A DNA stretch of 64,000 nt from an uncultured Acidobacteriia bacterium. Lineage in GTDB: Bacteria; Acidobacteriota; Terriglobia; Bryobacterales; Bryobacteraceae. Below are positions 7,744 to 61,283 of this stretch, one piece after another; the stretch's first letter is position 1; every line of letters starts with the position of its first letter. The notes under the pieces were generated by a model that saw only the letters and a program-made list of their open reading frames with translations, searched no databases and was not told where the DNA came from. Location: the NCBI GenBank assembly GCA_903907865.1, contig CAIVPR010000126.1, positions 124,001 through 188,000 of the forward strand. Reading direction: 5' to 3'. A program made the translations under genes and the position numbers.

Positions 7744-7830
7744 TGGTGCGGAGAGGGGGACTTGAACCCCCACGAGATTGCTCCCGCTAGCACCTCAAGC
7801 TAGTGCGTCTGCCAATTCCGCCACCTCCGC
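7744..7830 (-). tRNA. tRNA-Leu(GAG), CCA encoded
   Basis: gcggaggtggcggaattggcagacgcactagcttgaggtgctagcggg...gggggttcaagtccccctctccgcacca; anticodon loop TTGAGGT; long variable arm. Confidence 0.95.
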
Positions 7831-48040: not shown

Positions 48041-51000
48041 TTACACCAGCGGGTGGCCGAGGACGATCTCGACCTCGCTGTCAGCCCCGCTGAGGATCTC
48101 ATCGACGAACAACTCCGCGCCTTCCTCGATGCCGAGCAGTTTGATCCCGTTCTGCGCGAAGTGCTTGCGCAGACCAGGTGTCACCATGCCACCGTCCCAC
48201 GGGCCCCAATTCAGGCTCTTCACGCGCGTGCCTTTCCCAGCCTTGGATTGCGCGACGCGGTTCAGAACCTCGTTCGCCATCGCGTATGCAGCTTGGCCGG
48301 TGTTGCCTGTGCGCGCCGCGACAGACGAGAACATGCAGAGGAACTTCAACTTGTCGGAAGCCGTCGCGTCGAGCAGCGCTTCGAGCCCCTCCACCTTGGT
48401 GGAGAAAACGGCTTCGAATTTGTCGGGCGTAAGTTCCGTCAGAAGCTTGTCGGCCAGCACGCCAGCACCGTGGACGATCCCGGCGACCGGGCCCCAGTCC
48501 TTGCGAACTTGGTCGAGAGCCTGCGAGACTTCCGCGGCCTTGCGGATGTCGAGCGCGACGTAACGGGCTTCGGCTCCGGCAGTTTGGAATCCGGCGAGCA
48601 CTTCGCGCACTTCGCGTGATGCGATCACCTGCGACACCTTCTTACCTACGGCAGCGGGCGAGGCCGATTCGCCGCGCGACTTGGCGTCGGCGATGAAGGC
48701 CTGCTTGAGTTCCGATTCGGTCGTCTTCCCCGCGCAGAAGGCGGGCTCGTCGGCGATGGGCGTCCGTCCTAGCAGGACGTAGCGTCCCCCGGCCCGGCGC
48801 GCGAGGTGGATCAAGGATTGGGCCGTCACGCCCCGGGCTCCGCCGGAAGCGACGATGACGGCATCCTTGGCGAGACCAAGGTCCGACCCTGAGGCCGGGC
48901 CGAAGGTGGTTTCAACGGCAACCCGTTCGTTGCGGGCCCCGAGGCCGACTTCCAGTTCCTTGCCGCCGTTCAGAAGCTCGTTGAGCAGCGCTTGGGCGAT
49001 GGTGTGCGGCGTACGGCCGGCGAGGTCGATGTCGATAGCCTTCACCTTCGCCTTGGGCCACTCGATGGCAGCGGTCTTGGCGAGGGCGGACAGGCCGCCG
49101 GCCCAGGCGCGGTCATCCTTAGGAGCGAAACTGCCGCCGGTGTCCTGCACGGTCACGAAGACTCCGCCTTCGGCCGAAAGGACCGGGGCAATGGCGTGGG
49201 CTGTGCGGTAGGCCTGCTCGTTGGCGGCGACGGCCTGCTCACGGTTTTCGAAGGGGCGGATGCCGGACAGGCAGATCACGGCGCGCATTCCGCCGGGGAT
49301 TTCGTCCACAACTGCGGCCTCGAAGCCGCGGACGATGAGAAGTTCGCTGAGGGCGTCGGCAATGCCCATTCCGTCGTCAGTGATGGTCACGGAGCCGATG
49401 GATTCGTCGAGGATCGAGTGGCCGGTTGCGGCGGCGGGACGGGTGTGGAGCACTTGGCGGAGTCCGGTGGGAGCGGGTTGGGGCGCTGTCGCGGCGGAGG
49501 GAGTTGGGGTGGGGGCCGGTGAGCCGGCCCCCAGGTAGTTGGCGATGTCGGCGATGGTGCGGAGCGGCCCGAGTTCGGCCATGTCCGGCTCGTTCATGCC
49601 GGGGACTTTCTCGATCATGGCGGCGAAGATTTCCACGCGCTTGATCGAGTCGATGCCGAGGTCGGCTTCGAGCGCCATGTCGGGGTTCAGCATGTCGACT
49701 GGGTAGCCGGTTTTGTCGGCAATCACGTCGATCAGGACTGCTGTGTAGTTGACGGATGGGGCGGTGGGGGCTGCCGCGACGGGGGCCACGGCCGGAGCGG
49801 GAGATCCAGCCCCGAGGTAGTTGGCGATGTCGGCGATGGTGCGGAGTGGCCCGAGTTCGGCCATGTCCGGCTCTTTCATGCCGGGGACCTTTTCGATCAT
49901 GGCGGCAAAGATTTCGACGCGCTTGATGGAGTCAATGCCGAGGTCGGCTTCCAGGGCCATGTCGGGATTCAGCATGTCAACGGGATAGCCTGTCTTGTCG
50001 GCGATCACGTCGATCAGAACTGCGGTGTAGTTGACGGATCGGGCGGCGGGTATCGCCACCACCGGTGTGGAGGCCGCTGCCGGGGCAGGAGATCCAGCCC
50101 CGAGGTAGTTGGCGATGTCGGCGATGGTGCGGAGCGGCCCGAGTTCGGCCATGTCCGGCTCTTTCATGCCCGGAACCTTCTCGATCATGGCGGCGAAGAT
50201 CTCGACGCGCTTGATGGAGTCGATGCCGAGGTCGGCTTCGAGGGCCATGTCCGGGTTCAGCATGTCCACGGGATAGCCGGTTTTGTCGGCGATCACGTCG
50301 ATTAGGACGGCGGTATAGTTGACGGACGGGGCGGCGGGTTTTGCAGGCGCTGGTGCGGGTGTCGCCGCGACCGGAGCCGGAGAACTGGCACCCAGGTAGT
50401 TGGCGATGTCCGCGATAGTCCGCAACGGGCCAAGTTCGGCCATATCCGGTTCCTTCATGCCTGGAACCTTTTCGATCATGGCGGCGAAGATCTCGACGCG
50501 CTTGATGGAGTCGATGCCGAGGTCGGCTTCGAGGGCCATGTCCGGGTTCAGCATGTCTACGGGATAGCCGGTTTTGTCGGCGATCACGTCTAGGAGGACG
50601 GCGGTGTAGTTGACGGTCGGGGCGGCGAGTTTCGAAGGCGCTGCCACAGTCGCGGCCACCGGGGCGGGGGAACTGGCACCGAGGTAGTTGGCGATGTCGG
50701 CGATGGTGCGGAGCGGGCCGAGCTCGGCCATGTCCGGCTCTTTCATGCCGGGAACTTTCTCGATCATGGCGGCGAAGATCTCGACGCGCTTGATCGAGTC
50801 GATGCCGAGGTCGGCTTCGAGGGCCATGTCGGGGTTGAGCATGTCGACGGGATAGCCGGTTTTGTCGGCGATTACGTCGAGGAGCACGGTGGTGTAGTTG
50901 ACTGCGGCTTTCGCGGCGGCGACTGGCGCGGGATTGGGGGCTTGCGGCGCGGGTGGCGCAGCGACCGGGGCTTTTGAGACTGGAGCGGGAACGGCGGCGG

Positions 51001-54000
51001 CAACGGGCGGTGGTGGTGCTGGGGCAGTCGGAGGTACGGTTACTGCCGCCTGAAAGGCGGCTGCAGGCAAGAATGCCTGCCCCACAGCTGGTGCCGGGGT
51101 GATAGGTGCTGGAGCGACGCCGGCGGTGCGGGCGACAGGGGTGCCGAGTGCTGCCAGATACGCCCCTTCGATCGTCTTCAGGTAGTCTTCATGCGCCTTC
51201 GCCAAGCTCGACTGCCATCCGAAATGGGCCTGGGAGATCGATTCCTGGAAGACCCGATACAGGTCGGTCGCGTTGTTGGGTGTAGTTGTCGGGGCGGACA
51301 TTTGCGGGGCGATAGGTTTGGGTGTTGGCGGCGCTACTGGCGCTGGAGCGGGTGCCGGAGCGGCGGCGACGGGCGGCGGCGGAGTTGGTTTCGGGGCTTC
51401 GACAGCCTTTGCGACGACCACCGGTGCCGCTGCTACCGGTGCAACGACCACGGCCTTGACCACAGGCTTCGGCAGCGCCGCAGCGCCACCAGCCGGTGGG
51501 TACGGGCGGCCATAGTTGCCGCCATTGATCTTCACAACGAATTTCGGAGCCGGACCCGGCTCGGGCAGAATATCGTGCTGCTTACGCAGGTCCGCCCAGT
51601 TCATCGGGACTCCCTGCACAGCCAACTGGCCCAATCCATGCCACAGCGCGGTCACGCCGTTTGTCCCCTGGCGGTCGAGCGAGATCGCCGTGAACGGCCG
51701 ATCCCCCAAAATGCTCTTTACCAGCGACGACAGCACGGCCGACGGACCCACTTCCACGAAAGTTCGGACCCCATCCTCGTACATCTTCTCCACCATTTCA
51801 TGGAAGCGGACGGAGCTGGCAACTTGGTCGGCCAGACGGTCGCGCATCAGAGACGGTGCGGTCGGGTGCAGGTCGCCGTCAAAGTTGGCGTAGAACGGAA
51901 GTGTCGCCTCGGAGAGATAGCAATCCTCCAGATGCGCGCGGAACGCCCCGGCGGCGGGCGCGACCAGCGGCGAATGGAACGCCGTCGATACCGGCAGCCG
52001 CACCACCGTGTTGCCGCGCTCCTTGAAGCGCAACTCGGCTTCCGCGATGGCGGTCACGGTGCCCGAAAGCACCGTCTGGGTCGGGCTATTACGATTTGCC
52101 ACGGAGACATCGACGCCCCATTCGGTCAGCATCGCCTGTGTCTGGTCGGCTCCGTCGCGGACCGACAGCATCGCACCGGGAACGCTGGACGCCAAGGCCA
52201 TCAACTCGCCGCGTTTGCGGGCGATGCCGACCATTGTGTCCAGATCCGTCCCACCCGACGCGTACAGCGCCGTGATTTCGCCGAAGCTGTGCCCTCCGAC
52301 GCAGTCCGGGCTCACGCCCAGCGTCGTCAGGATGTTCAGAATTGCCACGCTGGCGGTGCCGATGGCGGGTTGCGCCCATTCGGTCTGCCGCAGGGTGGCG
52401 GCTTGGGCGTTGCGGTCGGCGTCCGAATAAACGGGCTGCGGGAAGACGGCCTCGCCCAGCCACGGCGCACCGTCCCAAGCGGCGCGGGCTTCCTGGAAGG
52501 CCATCGAGATGTCGGAGGTCATGCCGACGTACTGGCTGCCCTGGCCGGGGAACAGGAACGCGGTCGTGCCCGTCGGCTTGGTGGAACCCGAATAGACGCC
52601 GGGCATGGCGCGGTTGGCCGGATCCAGCTTCTTTCTCAGATCCGCGACGTTTTCGGCGACGGCAGCCATCCGGAAGGGCGCGGCGGCGTCGAACGAAACC
52701 TGCGATTCGCGGGCCTGTAGGGGGAAATTGTGGTCCGTGACCTTGCCTGCCAGCGCCTTGCAACGGGAATCGAGATCGGCCTGGCTGCTGCCGGAAACGG
52801 TGAATAGTTCCGAGGCCGCGTTCCAATGCTGTGGCGGACGCACGCCGGGGCCGTCATATTCCTCCATCGCAACGTGGAAATTGGTGCCACCGAAACCGAA
52901 CGAGCTGATCGAGGCGCGACGCGGGTAATCCGCCGGGCGCACCCACGGCCGGGTCTTGGTATTCAGATAGAACGGGCTGCTGCCAATGTTGATCTTCGGA
53001 TTCGGCTGGTCCACCTTGATTGTGGGCGGCAGAATCCGGTGGTGCAGCGACATGGTCGCCTTGAACAGGCTGGCGGCACCGGCGGCGGCCTTGGTGTGGC
53101 CAATCTGCGACTTCACCGAGCCCAACGCGCACCACTGCTTCTCCTCGGATGCTTCCGAGAACACTTGGCGGAGGCCTTCGAACTCGGCCGCGTCGCCCGC
53201 AACCGTGCCCGTGCCGTGCGCTTCCACCATCCCGACCGTTTCGGGACCGTAACCGGCCGACTCGTAGCAGCGGCGCAACGCCTTGGCTTGTCCTTCGGGG
53301 ACCGGCGCGTAGATCGACTTCGAGCGCCCGTCCGACGACGACCCGAGACCGCGGATTACCGCATAGATCCGGTTGCCGTCGCGTTCGGCGTCTTCGAGGC
53401 GGCGCAGGGCGAACAGCGAAACACCTTCGCCTAGGATGGTGCCGTCGGCCTTGTCCGAGAACGGCCGGCAATCGCCCGACTTCGAGAGCGCTGGGGTTTT
53501 GGAGAATGCCACGAACATCGGCGCGTCGTTGAAGGTGTCCGCGCCGCCGGTGATGACGAGGTCGGAGTGGCCCAGGTGCAGTTCGTCCACGGCCATCGCG
53601 AGCGCCGAAAGCGAGCTGGCGCAGGCGGCGTCGATCACACAGTTGGTGCCGCCGAGGTTGAACCGGTTAGCGATGCGGCCTGCGACCACGTTCCCGAGCA
53701 GTCCGGGGAAGGTGTTTTCCTGCCACGGGACGTAGGAATTGGTGATGCGGTCGCAGATTTGCTTGGCTTCTTCCTCGACCACGCCGGATTCGCGCAGGGC
53801 CTTCATCCAGACGCCACGTTGGAGGCGGCAGGTCACGTTGAGGAAGAGCTGTTGGCCGGAGGTGACGCCGAGGATGACGCTGGCGCGCTCGCGGTTCAGC
53901 TCGGTGAACTGGTTTTTCATCGCGTCGTCGAGGACCTGGCGGGCGGCGATGAGGGCGAGGAGCTGGCAGGTGTCGGTGGCGGCGATGGCGGTGGGCTGGA

Positions 54001-54253
54001 CGCCGAATTCGATGGGGTCGAAGTCGATCTCGCCGAGGAAGGAGCCGCGGCGGCAGTAGGTTTTGTCTTCGGCCTTGGGGTCGGGATCGTAGTGGTCCTG
54101 GAGGAGCCAGCGGTGTTCGGGGACGTCGGTGATGAGGTCGCGGCCAGCGAGGATGTCACGCCAAAAGCCGTGGGCGTCAGTGGAGCCGGGGAAGATGGCG
54201 CTGGCTCCGACGATGGCGATGGGCGGGAAGTGGGCCTTTTTTGGGCTAGACAT
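48041..54253 (-). CDS. PfaA-like megasynthase: KS-MAT-5xACP-KR
   Basis: KS (IDAACASSL, EAHGTGT, QIGHTKAAAG); MAT (GGHSFGE); five tandem LGIDSIKRVEIF ACPs; KR (VASGGARGVTAQSLIHLARRAGGRYVLLGRTP). Track ORF extends to 54427 but MSSPKKAHFPPIAIVG is the likely start. Confidence 0.92.
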   Translation of the reverse strand: MSSPKKAHFPPIAIVGASAIFPGSTDAHGFWRDILAGRDLITDVPEHRWLLQDHYDPDPKAEDKTYCRRGSFLGEIDFDPIEFGVQPTAIAATDTCQLLALIAARQVLDDAMKNQFTELNRERASVILGVTSGQQLFLNVTCRLQRGVWMKALRESGVVEEEAKQICDRITNSYVPWQENTFPGLLGNVVAGRIANRFNLGGTNCVIDAACASSLSALAMAVDELHLGHSDLVITGGADTFNDAPMFVAFSKTPALSKSGDCRPFSDKADGTILGEGVSLFALRRLEDAERDGNRIYAVIRGLGSSSDGRSKSIYAPVPEGQAKALRRCYESAGYGPETVGMVEAHGTGTVAGDAAEFEGLRQVFSEASEEKQWCALGSVKSQIGHTKAAAGAASLFKATMSLHHRILPPTIKVDQPNPKINIGSSPFYLNTKTRPWVRPADYPRRASISSFGFGGTNFHVAMEEYDGPGVRPPQHWNAASELFTVSGSSQADLDSRCKALAGKVTDHNFPLQARESQVSFDAAAPFRMAAVAENVADLRKKLDPANRAMPGVYSGSTKPTGTTAFLFPGQGSQYVGMTSDISMAFQEARAAWDGAPWLGEAVFPQPVYSDADRNAQAATLRQTEWAQPAIGTASVAILNILTTLGVSPDCVGGHSFGEITALYASGGTDLDTMVGIARKRGELMALASSVPGAMLSVRDGADQTQAMLTEWGVDVSVANRNSPTQTVLSGTVTAIAEAELRFKERGNTVVRLPVSTAFHSPLVAPAAGAFRAHLEDCYLSEATLPFYANFDGDLHPTAPSLMRDRLADQVASSVRFHEMVEKMYEDGVRTFVEVGPSAVLSSLVKSILGDRPFTAISLDRQGTNGVTALWHGLGQLAVQGVPMNWADLRKQHDILPEPGPAPKFVVKINGGNYGRPYPPAGGAAALPKPVVKAVVVAPVAAAPVVVAKAVEAPKPTPPPPVAAAPAPAPAPVAPPTPKPIAPQMSAPTTTPNNATDLYRVFQESISQAHFGWQSSLAKAHEDYLKTIEGAYLAALGTPVARTAGVAPAPITPAPAVGQAFLPAAAFQAAVTVPPTAPAPPPPVAAAVPAPVSKAPVAAPPAPQAPNPAPVAAAKAAVNYTTVLLDVIADKTGYPVDMLNPDMALEADLGIDSIKRVEIFAAMIEKVPGMKEPDMAELGPLRTIADIANYLGASSPAPVAATVAAPSKLAAPTVNYTAVLLDVIADKTGYPVDMLNPDMALEADLGIDSIKRVEIFAAMIEKVPGMKEPDMAELGPLRTIADIANYLGASSPAPVAATPAPAPAKPAAPSVNYTAVLIDVIADKTGYPVDMLNPDMALEADLGIDSIKRVEIFAAMIEKVPGMKEPDMAELGPLRTIADIANYLGAGSPAPAAASTPVVAIPAARSVNYTAVLIDVIADKTGYPVDMLNPDMALEADLGIDSIKRVEIFAAMIEKVPGMKEPDMAELGPLRTIADIANYLGAGSPAPAVAPVAAAPTAPSVNYTAVLIDVIADKTGYPVDMLNPDMALEADLGIDSIKRVEIFAAMIEKVPGMNEPDMAELGPLRTIADIANYLGAGSPAPTPTPSAATAPQPAPTGLRQVLHTRPAAATGHSILDESIGSVTITDDGMGIADALSELLIVRGFEAAVVDEIPGGMRAVICLSGIRPFENREQAVAANEQAYRTAHAIAPVLSAEGGVFVTVQDTGGSFAPKDDRAWAGGLSALAKTAAIEWPKAKVKAIDIDLAGRTPHTIAQALLNELLNGGKELEVGLGARNERVAVETTFGPASGSDLGLAKDAVIVASGGARGVTAQSLIHLARRAGGRYVLLGRTPIADEPAFCAGKTTESELKQAFIADAKSRGESASPAAVGKKVSQVIASREVREVLAGFQTAGAEARYVALDIRKAAEVSQALDQVRKDWGPVAGIVHGAGVLADKLLTELTPDKFEAVFSTKVEGLEALLDATASDKLKFLCMFSSVAARTGNTGQAAYAMANEVLNRVAQSKAGKGTRVKSLNWGPWDGGMVTPGLRKHFAQNGIKLLGIEEGAELFVDEILSGADSEVEIVLGHPLV
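49532..50905 (-). repeat. Five near-identical tandem ACP-encoding repeats
   Basis: VNYTxVLxDVIADKTGYPVDMLNPDMALEADLGIDSIKRVEIFAAMIEKVPGMxEPDMAELGPLRTIADIANYLGA repeated five times, about 285-bp period. Confidence 0.95.
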
Positions 54254-54455
54254 TTGGGTTAGAGTTCCGTTTCCGGTACGTGGATGTGGGTGGAGAGCTT
54301 TCCGGGAAGACTGGGAACGACGGGGCCGGGCCGGACAGGGTCCGCGCCAGACGCTTCGAGTTCTTCTGCTTGAGGCGCTGCTTGAGCCAAGAGATTGAGT
54401 CCCGGGGTGGTGAAACCATGGCGTCACGCGCGACGCCGATGTCCCAGAATTGCAT
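54246..54455 (-). CDS. 69-aa leader ORF overlapping the start of the PfaA-like gene
   Basis: MQFWDIGVARDAMVSPPRDSISWLKQRLKQKNSKRLART...SNPNV; its TAG stop lies inside the megasynthase start (ATGTCTAG). Confidence 0.4.
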   Translation of the reverse strand: MQFWDIGVARDAMVSPPRDSISWLKQRLKQKNSKRLARTLSGPAPSFPVFPESSPPTSTYRKRNSNPNV

Positions 54456-56311: not shown

Positions 56312-56398
56312 TGGTGCGGATGAGAGGACTTGAACCTCCACTGAGTTGCCCCAACTAGAACCTGAATCTAGCGCGTCTGCCAATTCCGCCACATCCGC
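56312..56398 (-). tRNA. tRNA-Leu(CAG), CCA encoded
   Basis: gcggatgtggcggaattggcagacgcgctagattcaggttctagttgg...ggttcaagtcctctcatccgcacca; loop TTCAGGT. Confidence 0.95.
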
Positions 56399-56441: not shown

Positions 56442-57611
56442 TCAAGCGGGAGTCGACAATCCGGCCAGCACTTCCTTGAAAACGTGCTTCGCGCCCTCCA
56501 CCCCGTCCCACGGACCGGACTCGTATTCGAGCGCGAATGTCCCCCGGAAGCCCGCCGCCAGCATGATCCTCGTGGACCGCTGGATGTCGTTGTTCTCGCC
56601 CCAGCGGTCCCAATACTTGGCGTGCACATTGGTGTGGGCGTAAGGCGCGAGGTCCCGCAGTGCGTTGTATAGCAGGTACTCATGCTCCCAGTTGCAGAAA
56701 TCGGGCGATGCCTCGCAGTACGGGTGGTTGACCTCGTCGATGATGATCCGGATGTTGATGGGATTCGCCGTCAGCCCCCAGTGGTTTTCCAGGGTGACCT
56801 TCACGCCGCGCTTGCCGCCGTACTCCGCCATCTCCTTGAAACTCTCGATGCACTGGCTCAGGTACTTCGTCAGCGGCTCGTTCTTCGGATAGCCCGTCGT
56901 AGGGTCCGGACCGGCCGCGGGAGCGACCCGCGGTCCCCCGCTGTTCACGCGCATCGATTTGGTTCCCAGTACCTGCGCCGCATCGATCCAATTTTTGGCG
57001 ACCTGGATACCCGCCTTGCGCGCGCTGTTGTCCAACTCGCAGATGTCCAGCGGGGCGTTGTTCGAAATGTGCTGGCAGGTAGTCCCAGTCGCCGCCATCT
57101 TGGCCGCCATTTTGTCGAGCCACTTGCGGCCGGAGGGACTGTGGGGTTGGAATTCGCGGGTAGTGCGGGGCGCGCCGTCGAAGATGCCTGTCTGGTCGGC
57201 AAACATGGAATCGTCGGACATGTCGCCGAACAGGCCGGAGAAGATGTCCATGCGCGTCACGCCGGGAAAGTGCTCCTTAGTGAACGTCGGGACGTCGAGC
57301 ATGGTGATTTCGCCGTACTTCTTGCGCATCTGTTCCGACAGTGCCAACTCGCGGGCCATCACCTGGCTGACCGGGGCACCGTTGCGCGTCCGCACGTAGG
57401 GCCAGCCCTTGAAGATGTGGCGAAGTGGCCAGGTGTTGGATGCGATGCGGTCCAGCTTGTCCTGTTCCGTCATGGGACGGGCGGAGGCTGTGGATTCTGC
57501 CGCGAGTGCGACACCGGCGGCGGTTGCGGTTTGCAGGAAGCCACGGCGGGCCATGTTTCCGACTGGAGCGATGCTTCCGACTGGAGAGGTGGAGGAGTGT
57601 TGTACCGGCAT
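56442..57611 (-). CDS. Sugar phosphate isomerase/epimerase-like TIM-barrel protein, Tat-like signal
   Basis: MARRGFLQTATAAG...KRGVKVTLENHWGLTANPINIRIIIDEVNHPYCEASPDFCNW. Confidence 0.8.
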   Translation of the reverse strand: MPVQHSSTSPVGSIAPVGNMARRGFLQTATAAGVALAAESTASARPMTEQDKLDRIASNTWPLRHIFKGWPYVRTRNGAPVSQVMARELALSEQMRKKYGEITMLDVPTFTKEHFPGVTRMDIFSGLFGDMSDDSMFADQTGIFDGAPRTTREFQPHSPSGRKWLDKMAAKMAATGTTCQHISNNAPLDICELDNSARKAGIQVAKNWIDAAQVLGTKSMRVNSGGPRVAPAAGPDPTTGYPKNEPLTKYLSQCIESFKEMAEYGGKRGVKVTLENHWGLTANPINIRIIIDEVNHPYCEASPDFCNWEHEYLLYNALRDLAPYAHTNVHAKYWDRWGENNDIQRSTRIMLAAGFRGTFALEYESGPWDGVEGAKHVFKEVLAGLSTPA

Positions 57612-57747
57612 TCCAGTACTTTACCGCAAACTGGAGCCAAGAACGAGGAAGGAAATCTGGAGGTATACGCGGAGGGCGGAACTGCCGGACGCAAGTCGGG
57701 CCGAACGCTCGGATCCCGTGGGGTTCCGAGCGGTCGGCCCGGGAAAA

Positions 57748-57891
57748 CTACATCTTCTTGTCGGTGCTGTCGGTCGACTTCTTCTTCTTGCCCTTCTTCT
57801 TCTCGGTCTTCTTGTCGTCCTGGGGCTGGGCGAACGAAACGGTGCCGAGGATCAGGCCGAGGCCGATGGACATTGCGATGAGCTTTTTCAT
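57748..57891 (-). CDS. 47-aa secreted Lys-rich peptide, copy 1
   Basis: MKKLIAMSIGLGLILGTVSFAQPQDDKKTEKKKGKKKKSTDSTDKKM. Confidence 0.8.
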   Translation of the reverse strand: MKKLIAMSIGLGLILGTVSFAQPQDDKKTEKKKGKKKKSTDSTDKKM

Positions 57892-58078
57892 GTTGGTAAG
57901 TCTCCTGTTGGAATTTTGTCGTGCAGACGATGCCGTCACTCAGAATGATCCCACCCCCACATGAACCCGGCCTTAAGATCTGATTAAACAAGCTTCATCT
58001 TTCGAAGATGACAGAACGCCTCAATGGAATCAATAGCTTGTACGTTGAAGCCGGGCGGGGACACACGAAGTCGGGCCA

Positions 58079-58206
58079 TGAAAAAGGCTGAACCGATTCA
58101 TGAAGTGGCAAAGATAGGAGGGGAGGTAAGAAGGAATTCTACAGGGGGAAATTTGGGCGTGGGAACTGCCGGACGCAAGTCGGGCCGACCGTCCGGGTTC
58201 CCGTAG
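58079..58206 (+). pseudogene. Truncated duplicate of HU-like gene
   Basis: MKKAEPIHEVAKIGG... matches first ~13 residues of MKKPELIHEEAKRSG at 58560 then diverges and stops. Confidence 0.7.
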
Positions 58207-58233
58207 GATTCCCGTGCGGTCGGCCCGGGAAAA

Positions 58234-58371
58234 CTACATCTTCTTGTCGTCGGTGCTGGTCTTCTTCTTGCCCTTCTTCTTTTCGGTCTTCTTGTCGTCC
58301 TGGGGCTTGGCGAACGAAACGGTGCCGAGAACGAGGCCGAGGCCGATGGTCATTGCGATGAGCTTTTTCAT
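58234..58371 (-). CDS. 45-aa secreted Lys-rich peptide, copy 2
   Basis: MKKLIAMTIGLGLVLGTVSFAKPQDDKKTEKKKGKKKTSTDDKKM. Confidence 0.8.
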   Translation of the reverse strand: MKKLIAMTIGLGLVLGTVSFAKPQDDKKTEKKKGKKKTSTDDKKM

Positions 58372-58559
58372 GTGTGTGATCTCCTGGTGGAATTTTGTCT
58401 TGCCGACGTAATTGCCGTCACTCAGAATCATCCCACCCGTACATGAACGCGTCCTTAAGAGACGATTAAATAATCTTCATTTTTCAGTCACAAGGAATTG
58501 CATCAATGGATTCAACAACTTACATCTTGAACCGTGGTTCAGAGTGGTACTGTGGGGCC

Positions 58560-58757
58560 ATGAAAAAGCCTGAACTGATTCATGAAGAGGCCAAACGCTC
58601 CGGTACTGAGCCCGGAACGGCGGCAGACCAGATGGACCGCGCGGTCAACCGCTTACTGCGGGCCCTGCGCTGCGGCCACCCCGCAAAACTCCCAGGACTG
58701 GGAACGATTACCCCAGGGCGTAGCTGGGTGTTCCGGCAGGAGCCCCATGACCGCTGA
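58560..58757 (+). CDS. Short HU/IHF-like DNA-binding protein
   Basis: MKKPELIHEEAKRSGTEPGTAADQMDRAVNRLLRALRCGHPAKLPGLGTITPGRSWVFRQEPHDR; HU N-terminal helices and GLGT strand, no DNA-binding arm. Confidence 0.65.
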   Translation: MKKPELIHEEAKRSGTEPGTAADQMDRAVNRLLRALRCGHPAKLPGLGTITPGRSWVFRQEPHDR

Positions 58758-59304
58758 GGACCTCGCCATTCTGATTTGCCGCTCTCTCGAACATTCGCCA
58801 GCCGTTGAGGTGGATGGACTCGGAGTCTTCGCGCGTGACGGCGACGGCAGCATCTCATTCCGCGGCGGCGACATGCCCCGCGTCTTCATCGCCTACGCGG
58901 TGGAGGACTTTGCCGCCGCCGAGCGGCTCTACGAGGGTCTTGAAGCCACGGGCCATGCGCCTTGGCTGGACCGCCGGAAACTGCTGCCGGGCCAGAACTG
59001 GCCGCGCAGGATCCAGGAGGCTATCGAGACTGCGGACTTCTTCATCCCGTGTTTCTCCACCAACTCGGTCAACAAACGGGGCGGGTTCCAGGCGGAGATC
59101 CGCTATGCGCTCGACTGCGCCAGCCGCGTCCCTCTGGACGATGTCTTCCTGGTGCCGGTTCGGCTGGACACCTGCCGGGTGCCGGCGCGGATCACCCGCG
59201 AGACCCAATACGTCGATCTCTTTCCCGACTGGGAGGCCGGGTTTGAGCGCATCGCGCAGATGATCGCCAAACAGCGGTCCCGGCGGGATACAATCCTGAA
59301 ATGA
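58747..59304 (+). CDS. TIR domain protein with short N-terminal HU-like segment
   Basis: MTAEDLAILICRSLEHSPAVEVDGLGVFARDGDG + PRVFIAYAVEDFAAAERLYEGLEATGHAPWLDRRKLLPGQNWPRRIQEAIETADFFIPCFSTNSVNKRGGFQAEIRYAL. Confidence 0.88.
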   Translation: MTAEDLAILICRSLEHSPAVEVDGLGVFARDGDGSISFRGGDMPRVFIAYAVEDFAAAERLYEGLEATGHAPWLDRRKLLPGQNWPRRIQEAIETADFFIPCFSTNSVNKRGGFQAEIRYALDCASRVPLDDVFLVPVRLDTCRVPARITRETQYVDLFPDWEAGFERIAQMIAKQRSRRDTILK

Positions 59305-61283
59305 GGGTGCCGAGACATCTTGGGCTGGTCCTGCTGGCGGCGGCTGCGGCCCGCGCGCAGGACCCTGGCCAGCAGGAGCGCCTCAAAGGTCTGACCCTCG
59401 AGCAACTGGGCCAGATCGAAGTCACAACCGTCTCGAAATCGCCGGTCGCCGTTTCGCGGACCCCAGCGGCGATCTACGTCATCACACAGGACGATATCCA
59501 CCGCTCCGGAGCGGCCAGCCTGCCGGAGGCGTTGCGGCTCGCTCCGGGAGTCGAGGTTGCCCGCATCGACGGCGTGAAATGGGCGATCGGCATCCGGGGC
59601 TTCCAGAGCCGGCTTTCGCGCAACGTCCTTGTTTTGATCGACGGTCGAACTGTCTACTCACCCCTTTTCCACGGCGTGTACTGGGAAGTCCAGGAGACCC
59701 TGATGGAGGACATCGAGCGGATCGAGGTCATCCGGGGCCCAGGCGGCACGATCTGGGGGGCGAACGCGGTCAACGGCGTCATCAACATCATCACCAAGAG
59801 GGCCCGCGACACCAAGGGAACGTTGGTCTCGGCGGGAGCAGGTTCGGTGGAACAAGCGACCGTGGACCTTCGGCACGGTGGCGGCAATGGCACTGGCTTT
59901 GACTACCGGGTCTACGGCAAGGCCTTTGAACGCGGTCCAGAGTTCCACCGCGACAACAGAAATTTCGACGACTTCCGGCGCGCTCAGGCTGGATTCAAGA
60001 CCGAGTGGGTCGTGAATCCCCGCGACACGCTAACCGTGCAGGGCGACATCTACGACGGGCGGGACGGCGAGAGCTACCAACTTACGCGTCTGTCGCCTCC
60101 ATCCACCTACATCGTCGACCGGAACGGCCGGCTCTCGGGCGGCAACGTTCTGGCACTGTGGAAGCGCGACCTTGGTTCAGGATCGGACCTCCAGATCCAG
60201 ACCTACTATGACCGGGTGAACCGCGAGCAGCCGAACCAAAAAGAGCTGCGCGACACTTTCGACGTCGATCTGGTCCACCACCTTGCGTTGTCGGACAGAC
60301 ACAGCCTCATTTGGGGTCTTGGGGCGCGCATCAGCCTTGGCAGGATCCCACCGGTAGTGCCGACAATTACGTTCGAGCCGACCCACCGTACCGACCACTT
60401 GTTTACCGGTTTTATCCAGGACGAAATTCAAATCGCCAAGAACAAACTTTCGCTGACCCTGGGGAGCAAGATTCTCCAAAGCTCATACACCGGCCTTGAC
60501 GGGCAGCCCAGTGCCCGCCTCCTTTGGACGCCCTCCACACGCCAAACGCTTTGGGGCGGGGTGACCCGCGCCGTACGGACGCCCTCGGACATCGAAGATA
60601 CGCTGACGACAACAAGCCTTCGTTCCTCCAACCCGGTCGCCTTCACTCGGACCACCGGCGACCGAATCTTCACCTCGGAAACGATGCTGGGCTATGAGAT
60701 CGGATACCGCCAGTTGGTCCGGCCCGACCTATCTTTGGATCTCGTCGGCTACTACAACCGATACAACCACCTGCTGAGCCTTGAGCCCCAGGCTTCCTAC
60801 TTCGACCCAACCGCCAACGGCACGATCTATCCCCAGGTAAACCGCAACGGCGTGTACGGAACCACTGCCGGACTGGAACTGGCGGCGAACTGGAAGCCGC
60901 GCCGGTGGTGGCGGATCGAAGGCTCCTACGCATGGCTCAACATGGACATGCACAAGCGGGCGGATAGCATGGATACGACGACGGTCGCCAGCTTGAAGGG
61001 GTCCAGCCCGGGACACCAGGTGGTCGTGCAATCCTACATCGGCCTGCCAGGCCATCTGGAGTTTACCCAAATCTTCCGCAGTATCAGCGGTCTGCCAGCC
61101 CAGCAGGTTACGGGATATAGGACCGCCGACGTACGGCTTTCGTGGCAGAAGTTCTCCCATTTGGAATTCGGAATCACGGGACGCAATCTACTCCAGCCGC
61201 ACCACGCCGAATTCAGCGGCGATCCAGGCCCATTGGTCGGCATCAGACGAAGCGTCTCAGCCGACATTACGTGGAGAAAATAA
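59301..61283 (+). CDS. TonB-dependent receptor
   Basis: Plug: VTTVSKSPVAVSRTPAAIYVITQDDIHRSGAASLPEALRLAPGVEVARI...IERIEVIRGPGGTIWGANAVNGVINIITK. Confidence 0.95.
   Translation: MRVPRHLGLVLLAAAAARAQDPGQQERLKGLTLEQLGQIEVTTVSKSPVAVSRTPAAIYVITQDDIHRSGAASLPEALRLAPGVEVARIDGVKWAIGIRGFQSRLSRNVLVLIDGRTVYSPLFHGVYWEVQETLMEDIERIEVIRGPGGTIWGANAVNGVINIITKRARDTKGTLVSAGAGSVEQATVDLRHGGGNGTGFDYRVYGKAFERGPEFHRDNRNFDDFRRAQAGFKTEWVVNPRDTLTVQGDIYDGRDGESYQLTRLSPPSTYIVDRNGRLSGGNVLALWKRDLGSGSDLQIQTYYDRVNREQPNQKELRDTFDVDLVHHLALSDRHSLIWGLGARISLGRIPPVVPTITFEPTHRTDHLFTGFIQDEIQIAKNKLSLTLGSKILQSSYTGLDGQPSARLLWTPSTRQTLWGGVTRAVRTPSDIEDTLTTTSLRSSNPVAFTRTTGDRIFTSETMLGYEIGYRQLVRPDLSLDLVGYYNRYNHLLSLEPQASYFDPTANGTIYPQVNRNGVYGTTAGLELAANWKPRRWWRIEGSYAWLNMDMHKRADSMDTTTVASLKGSSPGHQVVVQSYIGLPGHLEFTQIFRSISGLPAQQVTGYRTADVRLSWQKFSHLEFGITGRNLLQPHHAEFSGDPGPLVGIRRSVSADITWRK

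Follow-up and report, generated by a model that had tools for sequence, protein, structure and literature searches.

Tandem duplication of a gene for a small, lysine-rich, putatively secreted peptide beside an HU-TIR gene pair in an uncultured acidobacterium

A stretch of about 480 bp carrying the gene of a small lysine-rich peptide was almost certainly duplicated head to tail in the lineage of an uncultured acidobacterium from soil or freshwater, together with the promoter of the peptide and the first codons of a divergent HU-like gene. The duplication itself is ordinary biology. The account that explains the locus best, to which somewhat better than even chances are given as a whole, combines such an ordinary duplication with an exported, stress-protective peptide that would be activated by a regulator of the OmpR/PhoB class. 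The window, i.e., the whole 64,000-nucleotide stretch of DNA analysed here, comprises positions 124001-188000 of contig C126 in a 7.5-Mb draft genome (G000). The named relatives in the peptide alignment come from acidobacterial MAGs, several of them bearing the label Bryobacterales or Bryobacteraceae, and the two nearest are YR_bin-1866 (G015) and Umea1_bin-2613 (G018). The features of the locus are the following, in window coordinates.

56442..57611, minus strand: TIM-barrel (AP_endonuc_2) gene, which bounds the duplication and adjoins the locus also in G015 and G018
57678..58112, minus strand: left unit, the derived copy, with 3' hairpin, peptide gene, promoter and dead HU 5' end (blastn; the sister genomes are single-unit)
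57698..57741, minus strand: left 3' hairpin, directly past the stop codon (fold -39.2 kcal/mol, z -7.6)
57748..57891, minus strand: left peptide gene, 47 aa, with the putative signal peptide MKKLIAMSIGLGLILGTVSFA and then a mature part of about 26 aa (42% Lys)
57944..57949, minus strand: putative left -10-like hexamer, atcatt, about 10 nt past the last repeat (promoter alignment)
57961..57998, minus strand: left promoter box, four 11-bp direct repeats ATGAA, TTAAT, TTAAG, TTCAT (exact pattern match and column conservation)
58078..58113, plus strand: left-unit remnant of the first 12 HU codons (38/44 identical at +482, then 6/27)
58162..58594, minus strand: right unit, adjoining the intact HU-TIR pair (blastn and repeat search)
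58181..58227, minus strand: right 3' hairpin, inverted repeat I2 (fold -37.8 kcal/mol, z -6.2)
58234..58371, minus strand: right peptide gene, 45 aa, mature part about 24 aa (46% Lys)
58426..58431, minus strand: putative right -10-like hexamer, atgatt (promoter alignment)
58443..58480, minus strand: right promoter box, four repeats as in the left box (pattern match and column conservation)
58560..58757, plus strand: HU-like protein, 65 aa, HU match over residues 1-54 only (PDB profile search, Foldseek)
58747..59304, plus strand: TIR protein, 185 aa, half-HU N-terminus, 11-nt overlap with HU (TIR_2, hhalign, Foldseek)
59301..61283, plus strand: TonB-plug receptor gene, 4-nt overlap with TIR

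Elsewhere in the window there are two tRNA-Leu genes, at 7744-7830 (gag) and 56312-56398 (cag), the latter immediately downstream of the TIM-barrel gene. A nucleotidyltransferase at 55805-56239 matches the PADLOC candidate PDC-S09 (1.3e-20) and, with the small ORF downstream of it, is possibly an MNT/HEPN-type pair.

When positions 57600-58150 were compared with the window by blastn, a single second match was returned: 57678-58112 aligns with 58162-58594 over 445 columns at 81.3% identity (E 1.5e-113), and a repeat search places the two copies in register at spacings of 479-486. This one alignment covers the 3' flank, the hairpin, the peptide gene, the leader, the promoter, the intergenic spacer and HU up to codon 12. 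It confirms the tandem duplication of terminator-like repeat, peptide gene, promoter and HU start that a preceding sequence-only reading of the same DNA had proposed. The outcome that would have overturned that proposal, similarity confined to signal-peptide coding sequence, is excluded along with similarity of low complexity, since the match also covers the hairpin, the 5' leader, the promoter and the start of HU. An assembly duplicate was likewise rejected, because the copies differ by about 19% and other genomes have pairs of their own. The repeat is by far the strongest in the window, except for those within a large polyketide-type gene (four to five tandem repeats of 84-90% identity at 49512-50922, in a 2128-aa polyketide/fatty-acid synthase-type gene at 48041-54427), which are apparently tandem acyl-carrier domains.

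Similarity between the units is unevenly distributed. The two peptides are 89% identical in protein and 95% in coding sequence. At register +482, the promoter box region (43/53 identical, 81%) and the HU start (38/44 nt) each have a chance probability near 3e-16, the intergenic spacer is at 32/66 (48%), and beyond HU codon 12 identity falls to 6/27, the chance level. The HU copy of the left unit is thus truncated, as had been read from the sequence; its frame runs on beyond the homology until a stop, and the remnant is presumably non-functional. Within 58004-58113, more identity is retained in this dead HU start than in the adjoining spacer, a difference for which simple decay offers no explanation.

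The sister genomes G015 and G018 have one unit only, flanked by HU-TIR and by the TIM-barrel gene, whose product in these genomes shares 88% identity with that of the window over 389 aa. One unit at the equivalent site implies that the tandem duplication arose in the lineage of the present genome. The left and right copies also have a common 3' flank that is missing from both sisters. The junction with HU is intact in the right copy and that with the TIM-barrel gene in the left, the pattern that unequal recombination would leave. By such ordinary recombination the duplicate would have been produced, and it may have been retained because it raises the dose of the secreted peptide. The whole arrangement is kept in the right copy, beside HU-TIR, while the left copy is a complete peptide transcription unit with an HU fragment. 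The earlier statement of a joint duplication of peptide gene and HU-TIR operon goes too far: besides the peptide unit, only the intergenic region common to both sides and about 12 codons of HU were copied; TIR is absent from the duplicated stretch, and on the HU side the left unit is without the GTGAC element of HU-adjacent promoters described below.

The divergent linkage of the peptide with HU-TIR, also pointed out in the sequence-only reading, is found across the genus. In most genus genomes the peptide gene diverges from HU and TIR with start codons usually 182-188 nt apart; G007 has the same divergent order and G006 has it with wider spacing, and it recurs in G019, G024 and G032, which represent three other genera of the family. 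The arrangement predates the duplication. Two members of the genus, G001 and G016, have a contig end close to the peptide that interrupts the locus, and in G004 the TIR ortholog (L103, G004:C89:59585-60118) has an internal TGA stop and the peptide copies are unlinked from HU-TIR. The HU-TIR pair is single-copy in 29 of the 61 genomes searched, spanning 14 of the 19 genera of the family, and among these 61 genomes it was absent from other families of the order at E<=1e-30. Such a single-copy, family-wide spread looks vertically inherited. The linkage with the peptide is not obligatory, since in other genera many HU-TIR loci showed no linked peptide, and since G021 carries a peptide and its box but no TIR ortholog. 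An extension of the operon to the TonB-plug gene was considered on account of the 4-nt overlap in the window and was rejected, as the sister genomes are without that neighbour.

The peptide family duplicates repeatedly. Adjacent copies occur in seven of the 19 genus genomes (G000, G002, G003, G005, G010, G011 and G016), G002 carrying three in tandem, and G004 has two copies 3.4 kb apart. Second copies have their own box in G000, G002, G010 and G011 and lie in an operon without one in G003, G005 and G016; peptide duplication has thus happened in more than one way. Among the other tandem pairs of the genus only a doubtful HU remnant was seen, in G002, and it is not claimed. A third copy in the present genome, on contig C88 (L006 3843-4058; G000:C88:67845-68012), agrees with the right unit in 136 of 138 coding bases and has a 33-bp in-frame insertion (LRAVQDPLDHT). 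Its promoter is unrelated to that of the right unit, and its promoter and 3' region resemble a second locus of G015 and G018, at which the coding sequence is no more than 92-94% similar to the C88 copy or the right unit. The simplest reading is that the C88 copy was probably homogenised by ectopic gene conversion confined to the coding sequence.

The peptides are built from a conserved MKKLIAMTIGLGLVLGTVSFA, followed by Q, K or D and then by 24-30 residues. In the intact forms inspected, the mature part contains 32-46% Lys and has a net charge of +6 to +8. The signal peptide was judged by eye and by conservation, and cleavage would occur at the conserved SFA/Q(K,D) junction. Across 14 sequences pN/pS is 0.34 for the signal part and 0.60 for the mature part. 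The peptide is thus a coding sequence under constraint, which in the mature part acts mainly on composition. Conservation is higher in the signal peptide than in the mature part, as would fit a non-specific polycation and also a peptide that depends on its hydrophobic segment; best conserved of all is the glycine-patterned hydrophobic stretch. The peptide reaches no Pfam or NCBIfam model, and the family is found in none of the libraries searched. NCBIfam Spy and TrsH matches were dismissed as signal-peptide matches far under the cut-off, and two Pseudomonas matches (L085 and L088) as lipoproteins with only the signal peptide in common.

Directly past the stop codon, nearly all peptide genes have a GC hairpin (mean z -4.9). 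The description of this element as terminator-like holds as far as a strong GC hairpin goes; in the window, TTTT stands before it and no T-run follows, and in nearly all peptide genes of the genus the hairpin is likewise preceded by TTTT and usually lacks a T-run after it. It may represent the terminator style of the group or an mRNA stabiliser. A conserved-looking 5' hairpin (GACG...CGTC) has a folding mean z of only -0.7 and is not claimed.

In 23 aligned peptide promoters, four conserved pentamers (ATGAA, TTAAT, TTAAG and TTCAT) recur at an exact 11-bp period, and a -10-like hexamer lies about 10 nt past the last repeat. The promoter string atcattcagaatgacggca given before was misread: the peptide strand has atcattctgagtgacggca in the left unit and atgattctgagtgacggca in the right. 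Regulators of the OmpR/PhoB class bind tandem repeats of this geometry, the last of which would replace the -35 element, and the promoter layout makes it likely that a regulator of this class controls the peptide. A three-repeat pattern with <=2 mismatches occurs in the 7.5 Mb of the present genome only at the two units, and the left box is still an exact match to the consensus. In 19 genomes the box pattern with <=1 mismatch gave 22 matches, compared with 1 for a reversed control. Twenty of these precede such peptides, including the third tandem copy in G002, which the protein search had missed; one (L135, G011:C79:18686-18712) precedes a different small secreted protein rich in Lys, Ala and His, and one, in G010, is without a clear gene. 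That the box is the most conserved part, that the linkage is old at the level of the genus and that the peptides duplicate recurrently had all been absent from the earlier interpretation.

Membership in a plain Pho regulon was not favoured, because the half-sites upstream of the genome's own pstS (TTCTAAC-TCGTAAC-TTGAAAC) differ from those of the peptide box, which this genome has at the two units only. With pstS readable in about three genomes, the two kinds of promoter have in common the 11-bp period and the distance of about 10 bp to the -10, whereas the half-sites differ. On the HU side, 12 of the 19 HU-adjacent promoters contain a GTGAC element, compared with none of eight other copies, one of which is the left unit (Fisher p 0.003, with related sequences counted as independent). 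The left unit has kept what the peptide needs and lost what HU probably needs. The left copy can thus be regarded as a natural dissection, in which box and peptide gene survive and the HU-side element is gone, and which assigns the parts of the divergent promoter.

The proposed mechanism begins with an OmpR/PhoB-class response regulator that would bind the four 11-bp repeats standing in for the -35 and switch the peptide on. The product would be exported by Sec and cleaved after SFA, and the mature 24-30 residues would act as a disordered polycation in the periplasm or outside the cell, protecting the envelope or proteins under acid, phosphate or metal stress, as Asr does in E. coli. The proposal of a protective role draws on the signal peptide, on amino-acid composition, on how the promoter is laid out and on the other gene preceded by the box. 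Taken alone, the view of the peptide as an abundant, disordered, polycationic envelope-stress peptide working like Asr is plausible and has a little less than even chances.

The two proteins encoded across the divergent promoter bear on what else the peptide might do. In a profile search against PDB the HU-like protein matched HU proteins (best 3e-10), and the top Foldseek matches of its modest model (pLDDT 69) were all HU, with TM 0.7-0.8; an HU fold is therefore predicted. No DNA-binding arm was found, the HU match ending at residue 54 of a protein that ends at 65. The window protein stays under the Pfam cut-off (15.9 vs 22.4 bits), and 18 of 18 HU-like relatives match both PF00216 and PF18175 at E up to 0.1. 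The TIR protein matches TIR_2 (E 2.6e-27), and its residues 1-43 match the second half of the HU-like protein (hhalign, E 2.3e-7). Its fold resembles the NAD-consuming SPARTA and SARM1 TIR domains in Foldseek, and in the motif GGFQAE[IVL]R the glutamate E117 is invariant in all aligned members; fold and catalytic glutamate of a TIR NADase are both present, and the protein is a candidate NADase. Matches to ThsB were weak (best 0.0012), and no APAZ, Argonaute or ThsA was identified among the neighbours scanned beside TIR. A literature search on HU-TIR gene pairs found nothing on point.

The conserved glutamate and the SPARTA/SARM1-like fold, together with a divergent linkage kept at near-constant spacing across the genus and in three other genera, could suggest that the peptide is a secreted or regulatory partner of an HU-TIR immunity module to which the divergent promoter couples it, acting perhaps as a sensor ligand or as an inhibitor of the TIR enzyme. 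This is unlikely, given that a signal peptide would remove the product from the cytoplasm, where TIR is expected, and that the distribution looks vertical, unlike that of patchy defence islands. Moreover, the peptides are duplicated alone, G021 has the peptide without HU-TIR, and in the 14 of 19 genera that have the HU-TIR pair, as a single copy, mostly no linked peptide was found. Another reading takes the product for a hydrophobic membrane peptide of the type I toxin kind and the tandem copies for toxin-antitoxin repeats; it would agree with the small size, the tandem copies, the strong 3' hairpin and the conservation of the glycine-patterned hydrophobic stretch. However, the SFA/Q(K,D) junction is conserved as a signal-peptidase I site and an elaborate activator-type promoter precedes each copy, while Rfam gives neither an antisense RNA nor a known system, only a sub-threshold hairpin match; this reading is very improbable.

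It could also be that the second copy is useless, a recent neutral duplication heading for loss, as its short length, its restriction to a single lineage and its decaying HU remnant would allow. Yet the left spacer is down to 48% identity while the box remains at 81% and the peptide coding sequence at 95%, the left box matches the consensus exactly, and copies recur in other species, so that little probability is assigned to neutrality. A further and distinctly speculative possibility, which is thought quite unlikely, is a housekeeping module of the Bryobacteraceae. The arm-less HU and the half-HU/TIR protein would sense an intracellular state and be linked through the divergent promoter with a polycationic peptide, the near-exclusive target of its OmpR-class regulator. 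If this were true, a TIR system would serve envelope-stress physiology rather than phage defence.

The ordinary duplication leads to a peptide family with a near-private 11-bp-repeat box, neighbour to an apparently vertically inherited HU-TIR pair and present in nearly every genome of an uncultured genus. The family offers a way into envelope-stress biology in a group of which few members have been cultured, and the HU-TIR locus a handle on TIR proteins outside defence islands.

Among known systems, the closest comparison for the peptide is Asr (PF06392, NF033636), with which it has in common a small size, a secretion signal judged by eye and conservation, and a Lys-rich, low-complexity mature part. 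The mature part of Asr is much longer than the 24-30 residues of the peptide, which also differs in its admixture of acidic residues, in the sequence of its box and in phylum. PF06392 gave no match at E<=10 in the 19 genus genomes (an E. coli control matches), and the best score for NF033636, from a relative in G001, was 16.1 vs a cut-off of 50. By the tests made, the peptide is not a member of the Asr family and at most works like Asr, an intrinsically disordered periplasmic chaperone (PMC10746267). The promoters are alike in having OmpR/PhoB-class direct repeats about 10 bp before the -10; in E. coli asr, for which RstA is the acid activator, the PhoB box overlaps the -35 and lies 9 bp from the -10 (PMC9026648). 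The box-bearing protein of G011 is also similar to Asr in composition, with no match to the Pfam Asr model. Compared with HU/IHF (PF00216) and with the offshoots HU-CCDC81/HU-HIG of that family (PF18175, PF18291), the HU-like protein has the two helices and the first strands, in residues 1-54, and is without the DNA-embracing arm and the C-terminal helix of HU/IHF. The TIR protein has the TIR fold and the conserved glutamate in common with SPARTA TIR-APAZ and Thoeris ThsB, and is distinguished from these systems by its fusion to a half-HU domain and by its family-wide single-copy occurrence in the Bryobacteraceae.
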